Positions 1,442-28,329 of a DNA stretch of 46,864 nt are shown piece by piece. Numbering within the stretch: position 1 is the stretch's first letter; every line of letters starts with the position of its first letter. The notes beneath the pieces were generated by a model that was not told where the DNA came from, did no database searches, and was given only the letters and a program-made list of their open reading frames with translations. The stretch is from Acidobacteriaceae bacterium (lineage in GTDB: Bacteria; Acidobacteriota; Terriglobia; Terriglobales; Acidobacteriaceae). A program made the position numbers and the translations under genes. Where the stretch lies: the NCBI GenBank assembly GCA_027452125.1, contig DAIDGZ010000141.1, positions 1 through 46,864 of the forward strand, read 5' to 3'.

Positions 1442-2470
1442 TTACTGCCCAGGCTTGTGCGCCCGCGGATGAGTCCGGTCGTAAACCTGCGTCAACTGCG
1501 AGGCGGTCAGCTGCGTATAGCGCTGCGTGGTCGAAAGCCGCTCGTGCCCCAGCAATTCCTGGATGGCGCGCAGGTCCGCGCCCTCTTCCAGCAGGTGTGT
1601 GCCAAAGGCATGCCGCAGGGTGTGCGGATGCACATCTGCCGAGAGCCCGCGCAGAATGGCGATGCGCTTCACAATGCGGCCCACGCTGCGGGTGGTGAGC
1701 CGGGCCTGGTTGCCCGGCGACTGCAGACCGCGCAGCCGCAGATTCAGAAACAGCGCTTCCGGGGCGGCATCCTGCGGGCTCTCCACCGCCGCCAGCCGCG
1801 CCGCCCGCTCCGCCAGATAGGCGCGCAGTGCCACGGCAGCCGCATCGCCCAACGGCACCAGGCGCTGCTTCTGTCCCTTGCCGCGGATGAGAATCGCCTC
1901 ATTGGACCATTGGATGTCGTCGAGGTTCAGCCCCGTCAGCTCGGCGTTGCGGATGCCGCATCCATAAAGCAGCTCCAGGATGGCCCGGTCACGCGCCGGC
2001 CAGCTCGCCGCATCGTCACTCACCGAATCCACCGCGCGGTTCAGTTGCTCGATGCTCGGCACCCGGGGCAGATGCTTGGGTAGCCGCGGCGTCGCCACCA
2101 ATGAGGCGGCATTCTGCTCGATATACCCGGCCCGCGCCAGCCACTTGAACCAGCTGCGGATCGCGGCCAGCGCGCGTGCAGCCGAGGCGCGGGAAAGCCC
2201 GCGCTCGTCCAGCGCACCAAGATACGCGCGGATGTGCGTGTGCTCGATACGTTCCACGCTCAGCTCGCGGCTGATGGCAGTGGCAAACCATGCGGCAAAG
2301 CCGTGCAGTTCGCGGGTGTAGGCGCGCAGAGTGTGTGCCGAGGCGCCCCGTTCATGGGCAAGCACATGCAGATAGGCATCGATGAGTGGAGCCAGCGCCG
2401 AGTTGAGGGACGCATCCTGTCCTTCGGTGCTCTGCGAAGGCACAACCGGGGCGGCCTCGGTGGCCATCAT
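1442..2470 (-). CDS. xerC: Tyrosine recombinase, XerC/XerD type (second of tandem pair)
   Basis: [15 protein letters not shown]...[14 protein letters not shown]...[41 protein letters not shown]: complete catalytic residues. Confidence 0.88.
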
Positions 2471-3507
2471 GCCTGCTCCTCAGTCCGTGCCACCCGGGCA
2501 CGTCCGCCGCGGTGTACCACAAATCGGGCGGCCTTGGCGGGCAGCGAAGGAGCAGCTTCCAGCGCCGTCTCCTGCCGGGTGGCCCGGGGGTGGTGCTGAC
2601 GATGTACGGCCTTCAGCCTGCCCAGGGCCAGATGCGTATACACCTGCGTGGTTGAGATGTCTGCATGCCCCAGCAGCGTCTGCACGCTGCGCAGGTCCGC
2701 GCCGTGCTCCACCATGTGCGTAGCACAACTATGGCGCAGCATATGTGGACTTGCTCCGTTACCCGACAGCTTTACCAGTTGCCATACCCATTGCCGGGTG
2801 AGCGGCATGCCGCGCAAAGAGAGAAACAGCCGCGCCCGCTCAGTGCGGTCCGCTCTGGCCTTACGACCTGCGCCAATGCGTTCCAAATGCGGGCGCCCCT
2901 CTCGCAGATATACCTCCAGCGCCTCAATGGCGGCATAGCCCAGCGGCACAATCCGCTCCTTGTCACCCTTGCCACGCACGTGCACACAGCCCTGGTCCAG
3001 CGTCAGGTCGCCGGTCGAAAGTCCCGTCACCTCTGAAACTCTTAGTCCCCCGGCGTAGAGCAGCTCCAGGATGGCACGGTCGCGCAACGCCGCAGCATTA
3101 GCCTGAGGATGCATGGCAGCCTTGGTCGCGCGCTCCAGCATCTCCGCCACCTCAGCCTCGGCCAGTGATTTGGGCAACACTTTCCAAGCCTTGGGCGACT
3201 CGATATTGACTGTGGGGTCATGGTGGATGCGCCGGTCGAGCAACAGCCACTTATAAAAGCCGCGCAAGCAGCTCAACTTCCGCGCCGCTGAGCGTGCATC
3301 GATGCCGTGCGTATGCAAATGCTCTAAGAAGGCCGAAACATCCTGCTGCGCCGCTGTCAGCAGTACCCCCAGGCGCGTCTCCAGAAACTCGGCAAAGGTC
3401 TTCAGATCGCTGTCGTAGGCCTCGCAAGTAAGTGGCCGAAGCCCTTTTTCCACACGTAGATACGCCTGATAGTCCCGCAGCAGCTCCAGATTGCCCTTGC
3501 CATTCAC
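2467..3507 (-). CDS. xerD: Tyrosine recombinase, XerD type (first of tandem pair)
   Basis: [15 protein letters not shown]...[14 protein letters not shown]...[41 protein letters not shown]; overlaps the downstream recombinase by 4 nt. Confidence 0.86.
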
Positions 3508-15425: not shown

Positions 15426-16013
15426 TTACGCTTCTGTGCAGTCCAGTTCGACCCAGTCGCACACCATGTGCCCAGCCAGAATGTGCGCCTCTTGGATGCG
15501 CGCCGTATCCTTGCTGGCCACAGCAAACAAGTGGTCGGCATGCGCCGCCATCTGGCCACCACTGGCACCGGTCATGGCCACCGTCACCAGCCCCATTGCC
15601 CGAGCTTTCTCCAATGCCAGCACTACGTTACGGCTATTGCCCGAGGTGGAAATTCCCACCAGGATATCCCCTGGTGTTCCCAGAGCCTCCACCTGCCGCG
15701 AAAAGACCACGTCGTAGCCGTAGTCGTTACCGATTGCGGTCAGAATCGAGCTGTTTGTGGTCAACGCAATCGAGGCCAGCGCCTGCCGTTCCCGCCGAAA
15801 GCGGCCAACCATCTCCGCAGCCAGATGCTGCGAGTCACCGGCGCTTCCGCCGTTACCACACCACAGCAGCTTGCCCCCGGCCCGCAGCGCAGCGGACATG
15901 GCCTGAGCAATACCCTGCAAAACAGCCTGCTGCTGCCGCACCTGCCCAATCACCTCAAGGTGCTCCTCAATCGCTTTGCCGAATATCACAGCGGCATCCG
16001 GTCTCGCGGACAT
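15426..16013 (-). CDS. gmhA: Phosphoheptose isomerase (SIS domain)
   Basis: GGKLLWCGNGGSAGDSQHLAAEMVGRF...VGISTSGNSRNV; divergent neighbour of gmhB-like gene. Confidence 0.92.
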   Translation of the reverse strand: MSARPDAAVIFGKAIEEHLEVIGQVRQQQAVLQGIAQAMSAALRAGGKLLWCGNGGSAGDSQHLAAEMVGRFRRERQALASIALTTNSSILTAIGNDYGYDVVFSRQVEALGTPGDILVGISTSGNSRNVVLALEKARAMGLVTVAMTGASGGQMAAHADHLFAVASKDTARIQEAHILAGHMVCDWVELDCTEA

Positions 16014-16704: not shown

Positions 16705-18903
16705 TCAATATTTGCTTAGCTCCAGAATTCCCTTCAAAATCCGCTCCGGCTGGGGCAGAATAACGTCTTCCAGCACTGGCTGGTAGGCCACGAAAGTGTC
16801 CATCCCCGCCACCCGGCGCACCGGGGCATCCAGATCATCGAAGAGTTCGTCAGCAATCCGCGCTGCAATCTCTGCACCGTAACCCCAGCTCAACATGTCC
16901 TCGTAGGCGACAATCACGCGACTGGTCTTGCGCACTGAGGTGGCGATCGCCTCCCAGTCATACGGGCTTAGAGTGCGCAGATCTAGAATTTCGACCTCTA
17001 CGCCGTGCTCCCGCCGTGCCTGCTCGGCAGCCTGCAGTGCGCGGGGCAACACAGCGCCATAGGTTACGATGGTCAGGTCAGTTCCCGGTCGCACCAGCTT
17101 TGCCTTGCCAAACGGAATGGCAAACTCCGGCCCCGGATAGGGTGCGCGCCCATAGGTCTCGCGATAAAGTCGCTTGTGCTCCAGAAAGAGCACCGGATCG
17201 TCCGAGCGGATAGCTGTGCGCAACAGGCCGTTGGCATCCAGCGCATTGGAGGGAAACGCCACCCGCAACCCAGGAATATGGGTAAATATGCTCTCGCCGC
17301 ATTGCGAGTGGTAGATCGAACCGCCCGTTAAGTAGCCGCCAATGGGCACACGAATCACCGTCGGAGCGCCCCAGGTCCCGTTGGAACGCCACCGCAGCAC
17401 GGCTAACTCATTCCGAATCTGGTGCATGGCTGGCCAGATGTAATCAAAGAACTGAATCTCAACAACTGGCTTCATACCCCGTACGCCATAGCCCAGAGCG
17501 CGTCCCACGATGCTGGCCTCAGCCAGCGGCGAGTTGAATACCCGCTCGGAGCCAAACTCTGTCTGCAATCCGGCCGTCAGCTTGAATACGCCGCCCTTGC
17601 CCTTGACTTCGGCCAGAGCCTCTTCGCGGCTGGCATCGGCCACATCCTCGCCATACACTACAATCCGCGGATCGCGGCGCATCTCGTCGTGCAGGCAGGC
17701 ATTGATCAGATCGGCCATGGTGCGCGGCTCGCTCCCCTTGGCACTGCCTGCCTTGCCGCCGCCTGCCGTCCCCGGAGCCATTGCCTGCTCGTGAGCAAAG
17801 ACGCTACCAGCGATGTCTAGGTCTTCGGAGTAGACGTGCTTCGTAATCTCTTCTACCTTGGGCAGCGGAGCCAGCAGAGCACGGTCCGCTGCCTCGGCCA
17901 CTTCACGGTCGAGCTCCTGCTCCAGCGCCAGTAGTTCGGCTTCCGTGGCGATGCCTTCTTTCAGCAGCCTCGCCCTCATCCGCGCCAGCGGATCGCGCAG
18001 CGCATCGGCCTCGCGCTCGGCCTGCGAGCGATACAGCCGATCGTCATCAGAGAGTGAGTGCGAGTACGGCCGGGTGCAGTGCGCATGGACGAACGCAGGG
18101 CCGTTCCCGGCACGGCAGTGGGTCGCCGCCTTCTCAAAGGCGCGCAGACAAGCTTCGGCGTCGGTACCGTCTACCTCGTCAAAATAAAAGTTGGGGAAGT
18201 TTGCTACCAACCGCGAGATATTGCCCCCGGGTGTGTTCACTTCCACAGGCACACTGATGGCGTATCCGTTGTCTTCTACGCAGAAGATCACTGGCAGCTT
18301 GCGATTCGACGAGACGCTCATCGCCTCCCAGAACTCACCCTGCGAGGTCGACCCCTCCCCAACGCAAGTAAGCACTACCTCGTCGCCCTTGAAACTCACA
18401 TCTTGGTACCCGCGATAGTCGCCCTCGGCCTTGGCCGCCGCTTCAGGATGCCGGCTGAGATAGCGGCCCGCCTCAGCACAGCCCACCGCGTGCAGCAGTT
18501 GCGTCGCCGTCGAGGACGACGTGCTGACAATGTGCAGCTCACGGCTGCTCCAGTGAGTCGGCATCTGTCGCCCGCCGCTGGCTGGATCGTCCGCGGCGCC
18601 CACCGCCTGCAGCATCATGTCATACGGCGTCACACCCAGCGCTAGACAAAGTGCACGATCGCGATAATAAGGGAAAAACCAGTCGTACCCGGGACGCAAA
18701 GCCAGCCCTGCCCCCACTTGCAGAGCCTCGTGTCCCGCCGCCGAGATCTGAAAGAAGATCTTCTGCTGCCGCTTGAGTAGAATCTCGCGGTCATCTACAC
18801 GCCGGGAAAGCACCATCAACCGGTAAATCTCAACTAGCCGCTGCGGGCTTAGAGCGCCCTCGGCCAGCACGGACGTCTGAGCGCTGGAAACTGCCACTCC
18901 CAT
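16705..18903 (-). CDS. Branched-chain 2-oxoacid dehydrogenase E1, alpha and beta subunits fused
   Basis: 732 aa; N-terminal E1-alpha ([27 protein letters not shown]) followed by E1-beta ([43 protein letters not shown]). Confidence 0.93.
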
Positions 18904-23673: not shown

Positions 23674-25098
23674 ATGGACGTCTTAAAACAACTTTTCGAG
23701 CAAAAATTCGGCGTCGCCGCCAGCCTGGTTCAGCCCTTGCAGGGACAACTTGGGGGGTCCGGCCGCACCATCGTTCGCCTCACCGGGGGCGGCCATCGCG
23801 CCATCGGCATCGAGTACTCCGTGCATGAGGAGAACGCTGCCTTTCTCGCCTTCTCTCGTCACTTTCGTAGCCACGGCCTCTCCGTACCGGAGATCTACGC
23901 CGAGGATCTGAGCCGCGGAGCTTATCTAGAGGAAGATCTCGGTGACACAACGCTCTTCCAGTTCCTAGGCCTTAATCGCGATGGGGAGGCAGTCGCCCCC
24001 GAAGCTGTAGCCATGTACCGCAAAACGCTTGCCGCTCTGCCGCGTTTCCAGATTGACGCAGGCCGTGACATTGACTACTCCATCTGCTATCCACGGGCCA
24101 GCTTCGACCGCCAATCGATACACTGGGACCTGAATTACTTCAAATACTACTTTCTGCGCCTGGCCGGTATCCCCTTCAACGAGCAGGCTCTGGAAGATGA
24201 CTTCAACACTTTCTCGGGCTTCCTGCTCACCGCTCCGCGTGACTATTTCCTCTACCGCGACTTCCAGTCGCGCAACGTGATGCTGCTCAATAATGAGCCC
24301 TGGTTCCTGGATTACCAGGGCGGCCGCCGCGGCGCGCTCCAGTATGACGTGGCCTCCTTGCTATTTGACGGCAAGGCCGACCTGCCACCTGCTTTGCGCC
24401 AGGAACTGCTGGACCACTACATCAACTGCCTCGCCGAGCACGCTCCTGTTGACCGCGCGGCATTCATGGAACACTACTACGCCTACGTCTACGTGCGCAT
24501 TCTGCAGGCTCTCGGCGCTTACGGCTTCCGCGGCTTCTATGAGCGCAAGGCACATTTCCTGCAGTCAGTCCCCTACGCGCTCAAAAACCTGCGCTGGCTG
24601 ACCAGTAATGTTACCCTCCCCATCGCAGTGCCGGCCCTGCTTGAGGCGCTCGAGCGTATGAGCAACTCAGAGAAACTGCTCAAACTGGCCAGCCCGGGGG
24701 AAGACCTCACCGTGCGCATCTTCAGCTTTTCCTTTCACCGACAGATGCCCCCTGATGACAGCGGCAACGGCGGCGGCTTCATCTTCGACGCGCGCAGCCT
24801 GCCCAATCCAGGCCGCGAAGACCGCTACAAACCCCTCACCGGCAAGGACGCCCCGGTAATCGACTACCTGGACCAGCAGGAAGCCGTACATCAGTACTTC
24901 GCTCACGTCCTCTCGCTGGTGGATGCCAGCGTGGATGCCTACCAGCGCCGGGGCTTCAAGCACTTGATGGTCTCTTTTGGCTGCACCGGCGGACAGCATC
25001 GCTCTGTCTACATGGCCGAGCACCTTGCCAGCCATCTGCGCGCACGTGGCGTCAACGTCGCCCTGCGTCATATCGAATTGGAGAAGATAGGCAAGTGA
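23674..25098 (+). CDS. Fusion: AmgK-like aminoglycoside-phosphotransferase-fold sugar kinase + RapZ C-terminal domain
   Basis: Kinase catalytic loop YRDFQSRNVML and metal-binding WFLDYQGG; from about aa 345: VRIFSFSFH...FDARSLPNPGREDRYKPLTGKDAPVIDYL...VSFGCTGGQHRSVYMAEHLASHLRARGVNVALRHIELEK = RapZ C-terminal domain. Confidence 0.9.
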   Translation: MDVLKQLFEQKFGVAASLVQPLQGQLGGSGRTIVRLTGGGHRAIGIEYSVHEENAAFLAFSRHFRSHGLSVPEIYAEDLSRGAYLEEDLGDTTLFQFLGLNRDGEAVAPEAVAMYRKTLAALPRFQIDAGRDIDYSICYPRASFDRQSIHWDLNYFKYYFLRLAGIPFNEQALEDDFNTFSGFLLTAPRDYFLYRDFQSRNVMLLNNEPWFLDYQGGRRGALQYDVASLLFDGKADLPPALRQELLDHYINCLAEHAPVDRAAFMEHYYAYVYVRILQALGAYGFRGFYERKAHFLQSVPYALKNLRWLTSNVTLPIAVPALLEALERMSNSEKLLKLASPGEDLTVRIFSFSFHRQMPPDDSGNGGGFIFDARSLPNPGREDRYKPLTGKDAPVIDYLDQQEAVHQYFAHVLSLVDASVDAYQRRGFKHLMVSFGCTGGQHRSVYMAEHLASHLRARGVNVALRHIELEKIGK

Positions 25099-25853
25099 GG
25101 CCCACCATGAAAGCGATGATCCTGGCCGCTGGCCTGGGCACACGCCTCCGCCCGCTCACCAACAATCGCCCCAAGGCCCTTGTCGAATTGGCTGGCCGTA
25201 CCCTTCTGGAGATCACGCTGCACCGCCTGCAATCCGTGGGCGTCACTGAGATTATCCTCAACACCCACCATTTCGCCGATCAGGTGGCAGACTACCTTGC
25301 TGCTCATAACAACTTCGGCATGCAGGTAGAGATTTCTCGCGAGGACGAACTGCTCGATACTGGCGGCGGACTGAAAAAAGCCGCACCTTTCTTTCTGTCC
25401 GGTAATGCCGATGCGCCTTTCCTGCTACACAACGTGGATGTGCTCAGTACCATCGACCTGAATGCGATGCTCCGCTTCCACACTGAACACAACGCTCTCG
25501 CCACCCTTGCTGTTCAGAAGCGCATTAGCTCTCGCCTTCTGCTCTTTGATGCTAAGGGACAGCTCTGCGGCCGCCACCGCACACAGGATAGTCCTATTGA
25601 ACTGGCGCGCCGCACCACACAGTCCGAGGCGCGCGCCTTCTCGGGTATCCACATCCTCTCTCCACGCATCTTCGCGCAGATAACCGAGAATGGCGCCTTC
25701 TCGATCATTGACACCTACTTGCGCCTGGCAACCTGCGGCGAACGTATCCTCGCCTTCCCTGCTGATGATGCCTACTGGCGTGACCTCGGCAAACCCTCCA
25801 GCCTTACTCAAGCTGCCAACGATCTTCGCTCCGGCCTGTACCCCAGCATCTGA
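25095..25853 (+). CDS. Sugar-1-phosphate nucleotidyltransferase (MurU-like)
   Basis: MKAMILAAGLGTRLRPLTNNRPKALVELAGRTLLEITLHRL...LLHNVDVLSTIDL; GTG at 25095 (GTGA overlap with upstream stop) or ATG at 25107. Confidence 0.9.
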   Translation: MRPTMKAMILAAGLGTRLRPLTNNRPKALVELAGRTLLEITLHRLQSVGVTEIILNTHHFADQVADYLAAHNNFGMQVEISREDELLDTGGGLKKAAPFFLSGNADAPFLLHNVDVLSTIDLNAMLRFHTEHNALATLAVQKRISSRLLLFDAKGQLCGRHRTQDSPIELARRTTQSEARAFSGIHILSPRIFAQITENGAFSIIDTYLRLATCGERILAFPADDAYWRDLGKPSSLTQAANDLRSGLYPSI

Positions 25854-25958: not shown

Positions 25959-27065
25959 ATGGGAAAGCTCATGAAATGTTCAGCTTCACTCGCCCTGTGT
26001 ATGGCTACGCTGATGTGCACGGTCTCACTCGATTATGCGCACAGTGCACCACCCCTGCCGCCACGAGCACAGATTCTCGCGCTGATGCAACGAGCTGATA
26101 ACTACCAGAGCGCACACCCCGTGATGCCGCCTGGCGACCACAACTGGGAAAGAGGCACTTGGTACACCGGCGTAATGGAAGCATGGAAGGCTACTCACGA
26201 GAAGGCATTCCTTGACCAGGCGCTCGACTGGGGCCGGCAAAATCATTGGCAGGTGGGCACGGAAAAGCCCGGCGCGAACCGCCTGTTCTGCGCTGAGACA
26301 TGGATCGAGTTATCGCTTATCGAGCGCGATCCTGCGATGGCCCAGCCGACCATCGATTGGCTAAAGACCGACGCACCCAACTCCCCTGGCGGGGCACGTC
26401 GATGGTATCTCGACTCTGGCCGGCCCTATGTGGACTCGCTCTACGGCGCCGTTGTGTTTGCCATGCTGGCGCGCGAAACGGGCGACAAAACCTACCTCAC
26501 GACCATGCGCGCCTTCTTTGACGACATCGACAACGCCCTGTGGGACAAGGATGCTGGGCTCTTCTACCGCGACCCCACCTACATCGGTAAGCGCACCGCG
26601 CGCGGCAAAAAGATTCTCTGGTCGCGCGGCAATGGCTGGGCTTTTGCTGGCATTGCCCGCATGTTGGAATACCTGCCGAAGCATGATCCGCAGCGGCCAA
26701 AGTACGTGGCCCTCTTCAGGCGCATGGCTGCAGAACTCGTCAAACGCCAATCGTCCGATGGCTTCTGGCGCGCTAACCTGGACGACCTCGAAGACGTACC
26801 CAACCCGGAGAGCAGCGGTACCGGCTTTTTCTGCTTCGGCCTGGCCTGGGGCATCAGACACCACTTGCTAGACCGCCACACGTATCTGCCCGCTGTGCAA
26901 AAAGCCTACACTGCGCTAGCTGGTGTAGTCAGTCCAGATGGCAAGGTGGAGTGGGGGCAGCAGGTCGATGCGCAACCACATCCGGCCACCCAGCAGAGCA
27001 CACACGAATACGTGACTGGCGCTTTCCTGCTGGCATCCGGTGAGGTCTACCGGCTGAGCCGGTAG
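25959..27065 (+). CDS. Secreted glycoside hydrolase family 105 (unsaturated rhamnogalacturonyl hydrolase-like)
   Basis: Signal-like N-terminus; ALDWGRQNHWQ, FCAETWIELSLIERD, WYLDSGRPYVDSLYGAVVFAMLARETGD, LWSRGNGWAFAGIARMLEYLP. Confidence 0.86.
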   Translation: MGKLMKCSASLALCMATLMCTVSLDYAHSAPPLPPRAQILALMQRADNYQSAHPVMPPGDHNWERGTWYTGVMEAWKATHEKAFLDQALDWGRQNHWQVGTEKPGANRLFCAETWIELSLIERDPAMAQPTIDWLKTDAPNSPGGARRWYLDSGRPYVDSLYGAVVFAMLARETGDKTYLTTMRAFFDDIDNALWDKDAGLFYRDPTYIGKRTARGKKILWSRGNGWAFAGIARMLEYLPKHDPQRPKYVALFRRMAAELVKRQSSDGFWRANLDDLEDVPNPESSGTGFFCFGLAWGIRHHLLDRHTYLPAVQKAYTALAGVVSPDGKVEWGQQVDAQPHPATQQSTHEYVTGAFLLASGEVYRLSR

Positions 27066-27072
27066 ACCCGTC

Positions 27073-28329
27073 TCAATCCGCGATCGCGTGATCATTGCGG
27101 ACATTCACTCCGGACCAAGCCGTTTGCGCGCTCCATGGTGCGGGCGGCGCGGTCCAGAAGGAATCGCTTGGCGGCAGGCCCAACGGCAGCATCGCCCAGG
27201 TACAGATGTATGCGGTCCCGGTGGTGATGTAGCTCTCCGCAATGGAAGGCTGCGCCCCGCAAAACCCCACCTGCATCCACCCCTCTGCGTCAAAAGTACC
27301 CGGTGCCTCGAGCATGCGTCGCATCACCGCGGTTAGGGCGCAACGCACCTGCGCAGGAGCTACGCCCTCCGGCAACTCACGGTACAGAGCCATCTGCGCC
27401 AGCAGATGAAAAGCTCCGGTACGGTCAGAGAGAGAGCGACCAATTGGTGGATAAGTACCCTCAGGACTGATCATGCGCTCCTGGATGGCTGCGTAGCGCT
27501 GCGACCGTTCCAGAATGGCTGGACGCAGCGGCGCCCACGCCTTGCTGTGCGGAGCAATTCCATCCAGAATATTTAGCAGCATGGGATGAATTATGAAGCT
27601 GTTGTAGTAGTCCCAGTGGAACTCGGGTCCATCGCCATACGCTCCGTCGCCCTTGTACCAAAGTTCTACCGTACGAAGCGCAAGATCGATACGCATCGAA
27701 TCCCAAGGCCGCCCCATGAAGGCCAGCCCCGTCTCCACCATCGCGGCGAAGAGTAGCCAGTTGTTGTAGCCCGGACGAATGACGCGCGTGGACTCCAGCG
27801 CGCGGATCAGGTGCTGTTGTGTCGCCGGATCCAGTTGCCGCCAGAGTTGATTGGGGGCACGCAGAATGGCTAGCGTCAGCAGTGCAGCATCTACCAGAGG
27901 CTGACTGCCTTTATTGAAATCCATGAAGTCCGGAGAGTGCGGATCGCAGCCGGCATGGATACCACTCCGCGCCCACGCGGCATACTGCGCGCGCAACGCG
28001 GCCTCGGAGCCGGTCAGCGCATCCGCCTCCAGCCAGGGTGCAATCCCAGCCAGCACGTTGGCAAGTGCAGCCAAATAGGCATAGGGCTTGCGCTCGGCCA
28101 GATTGCCCGTGGGCACAACCACCGGCATGGTTGCCTTCAAGCGGCTCTGGCTCAGTGCGCGCAAAACCGGAGCGCAGATTCGGTCCATCAGGCGAATCCA
28201 GTAGGCGCGGTCGTCAACCCCATTCACGGCGGCGGCCGCCTGGGACATCGTCGCTGCGGAAGCAGCTGATCCCACAGCGGCACAGCTCTTCAAAAAGTCG
28301 CGGCGGGCAATCCCTTTATTCATTCGCAT
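27073..28329 (-). CDS. DUF2264-domain protein with twin-arginine signal
   Basis: ARRDFLKSCAAVGSAAS Tat-like motif; YAAWARSGIHAGCDPHSPDFMDFNKGSQPLVDAALLTLAILRAP..., YGDGPEFHWDYYNSFIIHPML. Confidence 0.84.
   Translation of the reverse strand: MRMNKGIARRDFLKSCAAVGSAASAATMSQAAAAVNGVDDRAYWIRLMDRICAPVLRALSQSRLKATMPVVVPTGNLAERKPYAYLAALANVLAGIAPWLEADALTGSEAALRAQYAAWARSGIHAGCDPHSPDFMDFNKGSQPLVDAALLTLAILRAPNQLWRQLDPATQQHLIRALESTRVIRPGYNNWLLFAAMVETGLAFMGRPWDSMRIDLALRTVELWYKGDGAYGDGPEFHWDYYNSFIIHPMLLNILDGIAPHSKAWAPLRPAILERSQRYAAIQERMISPEGTYPPIGRSLSDRTGAFHLLAQMALYRELPEGVAPAQVRCALTAVMRRMLEAPGTFDAEGWMQVGFCGAQPSIAESYITTGTAYICTWAMLPLGLPPSDSFWTAPPAPWSAQTAWSGVNVRNDHAIAD

Follow-up and report, generated by a model that had tools for sequence, protein, structure and literature searches.

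How a sugar kinase comes to carry the C-terminal domain of the regulator RapZ, and what such a protein might do beside an enzyme that makes nucleotide sugars, is the question raised by a locus in the 46,864-nucleotide stretch of Acidobacteriaceae DNA analysed here (henceforth the window; its source genome is 67% complete and in 178 contigs). A sequence-only reading had described one continuous open reading frame in which an AmgK-like kinase is joined to a RapZ C-terminal domain (RapZ_C) and followed by a MurU-like nucleotidyltransferase. Pfam indeed places both domains within the 474 aa of this frame, which runs without interruption along its whole length (Table 1). The APH motifs quoted in that reading (YRDFQSRNVML and FLDYQGG) are present in the frame, the RapZ_C that it had placed from about aa 345 coincides with the Pfam match, and AlphaFold models the entire protein with a mean pLDDT of 91.3. 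A frameshift or an assembly error joining two genes is ruled out because about 31 of 35 genomes of the same genus also carry the fusion in one frame, mostly alongside a separate canonical RapZ, as do 100 other loci with 48-76% identity over the whole fusion length. The kinase-RapZ_C fusion is thus confirmed as a real gene and not an artefact.

Table 1 Features of the fusion locus and of other parts of the window (positions are those of the window)
Feature	Positions	Strand	Extent in protein	Basis or context
Fusion gene, AmgK-like APH-fold sugar kinase + RapZ C-terminal domain	23674-25098	+	474 aa	Pfam, NCBIfam, AlphaFold
APH / AmgK-like kinase domain	23821-24441	+	aa 50-256	Pfam PF01636, E 3.6e-13
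RapZ C-terminal domain	24709-25080	+	aa 346-469	Pfam PF22740, E 5.6e-36; TM 0.92 to PDB 5o5s
Phosphate-binding loop GCTGGQHRSV (C-x5-R-S)	24979-25008	+	aa 436-445	Equivalent of E. coli RapZ G246-V255
MurU-like sugar-1-phosphate nucleotidyltransferase	25107-25853	+	248 aa from ATG 25107 (252 aa if GTG 25095)	
Two adjacent tyrosine recombinases	1442-3507	-		Phage integrase family
SIS_2 (GmhA-like) gene	15426-16013	-		Near ABC exporter and YicC/guanylate kinase/DFP group
Glycosyl hydrolase family 88 gene and opposite-strand DUF2264 gene	25959-28329			Directly after the gene pair

The earlier suggestion that related fusions may exist in databases was borne out by 101 loci from several phyla with the same architecture. 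A scan of GTDB contigs found at least 572 places encoding relatives, of which the best 80 were retained; the nearest are labelled Acidobacteriaceae or Acidobacteria, and among these best 80 the relatives outside the window's close kin share 49-57% identity over residues ~4-470 and come from Bacteroidota, Ignavibacteria, Calditrichota, KSB1, Neomarinimicrobiota, Elusimicrobia, Verrucomicrobia (Opitutia) and other groups. The fusion is an old, widespread family and not a rare one. Canonical RapZ was not found in most of the fusion-bearing genomes checked outside Acidobacteriota. Within the window's own genus, the fusion is the sole RapZ_C match in three genomes (G018, rated 100% complete, G022 and G025), from which canonical RapZ has seemingly been lost. 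Our literature search found no publication describing the kinase-RapZ_C architecture and none combining RapZ, AmgK and fusion; the fusion and its transferase partner form a widespread gene pair that is apparently undescribed.

The N-terminal part of the fusion has the hallmarks of AmgK: the modelled domain matches APH-fold structures, and both the catalytic loop YRDFQSRN (D196, N201) and the Mg-site aspartate D213 (DYQGG) are nearly invariant among fusions. Its closest named families are two AmgK equivalogs, matched at 62 bits (NF045698) and 41 bits, far below the respective cut-offs of 500 or 550 bits (500 for NF045698). On a kinase tree, which was built by a quick method and has long branches, every fusion and every split version (see below) falls in a single clade, distant from the AmgK-like kinases that lack RapZ_C. 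Judging by homology, the domain would phosphorylate a sugar at C1.

The downstream enzyme finds its best NCBIfam match in MurU (NF045761) at 137.8 bits, under the 250-bit equivalog cut-off, and MurU is also its best structure match; it shares 36% identity over aligned positions with P. putida MurU, in keeping with the initial MurU-like assignment, and additionally matches mannose-1-P and heptose-1-P guanylyltransferases. Its homologues suggest that it couples a sugar-1-phosphate to UTP. The reported overlap of the two genes in the letters GTGA holds only in part: GTG 25095 would give it, but in relatives the start aligned with ATG 25107 usually shares 4 nt with the end of the kinase gene (ATGA, 56 of 91 loci). 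ATG 25107, 8 nt past the fusion stop, is therefore no less likely than the GTG to be the start in the window.

As befits the operon partner of an AmgK-like kinase, the transferase lies downstream in the same direction in 91 of 101 fusion loci, and within 400 nt in 90 of them. Six of the ten loci without it end no more than 300 nt after the fusion match, and the other four, all from Bacteroidota (L102, L112, L129 and L130), have no transferase in the 5.7-6 kb downstream. Clustering of the genes around 89 loci revealed no third neighbour conserved across phyla that could name the pathway, and no glycan or heptose genes conserved beside the pair; the transferase is the sole neighbour of the fusion conserved across phyla. 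Three Bacteroidota loci (L132, L133 and L134) instead encode the domains separately, as a kinase gene, a stand-alone RapZ_C gene (133-135 aa) and a transferase gene that lie next to one another with the order unchanged. These split loci appear to need two separate changes on the kinase tree, most simply two fissions with the order kept both times. Within the window, the SIS_2 gene about 8 kb from the fusion is not conserved with it, and the family 88 hydrolase and DUF2264 genes probably serve plant polysaccharide breakdown with no relation to the pair; two adjacent tyrosine recombinases are also encoded (Table 1).

We then considered what RapZ_C itself can tell about function. The match to PF22740 (123.8 bits against a curated cut-off of 27) spans positions 2-120 of the 121-position profile, i.e., the full domain, and the AlphaFold model gave the same answer: the modelled C-terminal part has the RapZ-CTD fold, superposing on the E. 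coli domain with an rmsd of 1.7-1.9 A and 38-39% identity. By contrast, the RapZ RNase adapter family (NF003828) is matched at 110 bits versus a cut-off of 244, over profile positions 156-277, and the N-terminal P-loop (Walker A) domain that this family combines with the CTD is absent. The phosphate-binding loop is conserved almost without exception: its C, T, G and G occur in 99/99 aligned fusions and its H and R in 98/99, with all six present in 30/30 canonical RapZ proteins. In the AlphaFold model C437-R443-S444 sit between strand 430-437 and helix 443-457, which is the arrangement of the C-x5-R-S/T loop in the protein tyrosine phosphatase (PTP) superfamily. A PTP fold was rejected, as no PTP appeared among the best 50 Foldseek PDB matches and RapZ alone scored below E 0.3; the likeness of RapZ_C to PTPs is one loop. 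Around this constant loop, the equivalents of four E. coli RapZ residues are replaced (H190 by Gly in 99/99 fusions, W191 by Arg or Lys, N236 by Arg and R238 by Phe, the last in 99/99), which points to a class-wide change of the ligand site. Two newly conserved basic residues, R381 and R426 in the window's numbering, could contact the carboxylate of MurNAc.

The distribution of the enzymes that make and consume MurNAc-6P provides further clues. In a sample of 148 Bacteroidota genomes, RapZ_C was found in 20 (in 17 within a reading frame as long as a fusion, 480-524 aa, and in 3 as a stand-alone gene), with no canonical RapZ among the matches. MurQ was rarer in genomes with the module (8/20 versus 96/128 without, p 0.003). 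AnmK by itself was not enriched (15/20 versus 89/128, p 0.79); the association resides in genomes with AnmK and without MurQ, a combination that makes MurNAc-6P a dead end. There were eight of these, seven among the 20 with the module and one among the 128 without (p 2e-6), although Bacteroidota kinases with and without RapZ_C form two separate clades on the kinase tree, so that the genomes are not independent, the AnmK contrast may approach a single event and Fisher p values overstate it. An AmgK-like kinase, whether accompanied by RapZ_C or not, is encoded in 41 of the 44 MurQ-negative Bacteroidota, and kinases lacking RapZ_C occur in none of the 104 MurQ-positive genomes; MurQ and AmgK-like kinases are thus nearly complementary across the sample.

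In a second set, drawn from several phyla, AnmK is present in 35 of 41 RapZ_C-bearing genomes (one genome is shared with the Bacteroidota set). Three Opitutia genomes (G192, G364 and G374, carrying loci L105, L117 and L131) make up half of the six without AnmK, and all three fusion genomes of this group lack a credible AnmK. The window's own genome encodes AnmK. In Acidobacteriota we found no association of AnmK or MurQ with the fusion because the sampled fusion genomes belong to one family, the window's, in which both enzymes are present irrespective of the fusion (14/14). In the phylum as sampled, 20 of 26 genomes with AnmK and without MurQ have AmgK-like kinases lacking RapZ_C instead, and 24 Acidobacteriota with such kinases do have AnmK.

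The relatives without RapZ_C offer a further hint about the substrate. In five Bacteroidota loci (L148, L151, L152, L153 and L155) the transferase follows an AmgK-like kinase that lacks RapZ_C; Pfam identifies the third gene of L151 and L152 as encoding a NamZ exo-N-acetylmuramidase, and that of L153 is similar judging by the start of its sequence. The transferases of these NamZ-type loci are ~310-340 aa long, and the one in L152 matches hexapeptide repeats C-terminally; in that locus a sodium:solute symporter also follows NamZ. Such a set of kinase, MurU-like transferase, NamZ and symporter looks like a complete operon for the salvage of free MurNAc. The 29 Bacteroidota genomes with a RapZ_C-less kinase have neither AnmK nor MurQ, whereas 15 of the 20 with RapZ_C have AnmK, and the presence of NamZ beside the kinase in the loci read points to free MurNAc as the substrate.

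Taken together, the homology to AmgK and MurU, the near-invariant gene pair, the complementarity with MurQ and the NamZ genes beside RapZ_C-less relatives support MurNAc salvage, which we consider the probable role of the gene pair and which is in line with the amino-sugar recycling anticipated from the sequence. In the specific version that we put forward, AnmK, from a gene outside the module, would convert anhydro-MurNAc to MurNAc-6P; the C-x5-R-S loop of RapZ_C would hold this phosphosugar and the domain, standing in for the HAD phosphatase MupP, would release MurNAc in cis; the kinase domain would then phosphorylate MurNAc at C1, and the transferase would join the sugar-1-phosphate to UTP, making UDP-MurNAc directly. 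We regard this complete scheme as our leading candidate, at a little below an even chance. Its phosphatase step, and MurNAc-6P as the substrate, are suggested by motif and co-occurrence. The near-invariant Cys/Arg loop acquires meaning from what is known of E. coli RapZ: Khan and Goerke (PMC7199280) likened the pocket of RapZ to the phosphatase loop of Cys-dependent tyrosine phosphatases and proposed that GlcN6P is hydrolysed there; the C247S variant is inactive, and a CTD crystal soaked with GlcN6P contained a likely transformed product (Islam et al., PMC9841335). More broadly, it is possible, if somewhat more tentative, that RapZ_C, on a fold other than that of PTPs, uses its PTP-like loop as the active site of a sugar-6-phosphate phosphatase. 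The domain would here act on MurNAc-6P in a salvage route employed by many phyla, and the RNA regulator RapZ of E. coli would descend from this catalytic pocket or share it.

The same MurNAc/GlcNAc salvage could also run with RapZ_C as the metabolite sensor that the sequence-only reading had envisaged: without catalysing a reaction, its pocket would bind GlcN6P or MurNAc-6P and adjust kinase activity allosterically. E. coli RapZ-CTD binds and senses GlcN6P (PMC7073468), the pocket residues C, T, G, H and R are retained, and covalent linkage with a conserved gene order would suit a regulatory subunit. However, the histidine whose change to Ala inactivates E. coli RapZ (H190, PMC9841335) is the residue lost from every aligned fusion, the replacements at W191, N236 and R238 likewise speak of a different ligand site, and no aligned fusion has lost the Cys, which plain phosphate binding does not require; nor does sensing predict the association with AnmK. 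A separate RapZ_C gene between kinase and transferase, together with the retention of C437 and R443 and the loss of H190, fits an additional enzymatic step no less well than it fits a sensor. Given MurNAc-type salvage, we therefore lean towards the phosphatase, and consider sensing unlikely overall while still a serious competitor. Less probable again is that the C1 kinase, RapZ_C dephosphorylation and nucleotidyl transfer act on another sugar, e.g., a heptose or hexosamine destined for surface glycans, as in GDP-heptose synthesis. The distant kinase, the unreached equivalog cut-offs, the guanylyltransferase matches and the GmhA-like gene of the window would be compatible with this, but MurU is the top family and structure match, the pair is accompanied by no conserved glycan or heptose genes, and the MurQ and NamZ patterns indicate MurNAc.

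Finally, fused RapZ_C might, like its E. coli counterpart, bind a small RNA, linking salvage to control of the glmS type, given that E. coli RapZ-CTD binds RNA by itself (PMC7073468). This is very improbable, and the residues involved lend little support to RNA contacts of the E. coli kind: of the eight basic contacts (K170, R184, K194, R196, K203, R211, R238 and K251) R184 alone is retained throughout the fusions, K251 is mostly Gln and the basic C-terminal tail is missing. The RNA-binding part is moreover confined to Enterobacteriaceae (PMC7073468), and no Rfam RNA was matched between positions 18000 and 32000 of the window.

Compared with known systems, our preferred reading, in which RapZ_C supplies the phosphatase step, most resembles the AmgK-MurU route of Pseudomonas and Caulobacter, completed in Pseudomonas as AnmK-MupP-AmgK-MurU (Borisova et al., PMC5371407). 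Both place an APH-fold kinase before a MurU-like transferase in one operon, and in Bacteroidota the module is complementary to MurQ; they differ in that the module's kinase bears RapZ_C and belongs to a distant, separate clade, its product is predicted, and both proteins score far under the AmgK and MurU cut-offs. RapZ_C would perform the reaction of MupP just before the AmgK step, yet its putative activity would rest on a fold and catalytic residue unrelated to those of this HAD-type MurNAc-6P phosphatase. With RapZ/YvcJ the fusion shares the CTD fold and phosphate-loop residues, but has a kinase in place of the N-terminal P-loop domain and is altered at the four ligand-site positions and the basic tail. 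The Bacteroidota AmgK-MurU-NamZ operons share the kinase and transferase but lack RapZ_C, AnmK and MurQ, and would take up free MurNAc released by NamZ. In the window's family, where AnmK and MurQ are present with or without the fusion, the module would add an anabolic branch to the catabolic one, an arrangement that has been proposed for Tannerella forsythia (PMC7670621). AmgK and MurU of T. forsythia have been expressed in E. coli (PMC13041923), and if this AmgK has RapZ_C, the kinase activity of one family member would already be in use.

Pseudomonas-type recycling with a RapZ_C-bearing kinase would be a new form of a known route, and its significance would grow should RapZ_C turn out to be catalytic. 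In RapZ itself, the amino-sugar sensor of E. coli, the loop Cys is essential and the GlcN6P-soaked crystal hints at chemistry in the ligand site; a widespread module that flanks the RapZ pocket with a sugar kinase on one side and an enzyme making UDP-sugars on the other offers a direct test of RapZ_C as an enzyme. Our literature search found no description of a route from MurNAc-6P to UDP-MurNAc for Bacteroidota, Acidobacteriota, Elusimicrobiota, Calditrichota and the other phyla concerned, and the module would complete peptidoglycan recycling in them.
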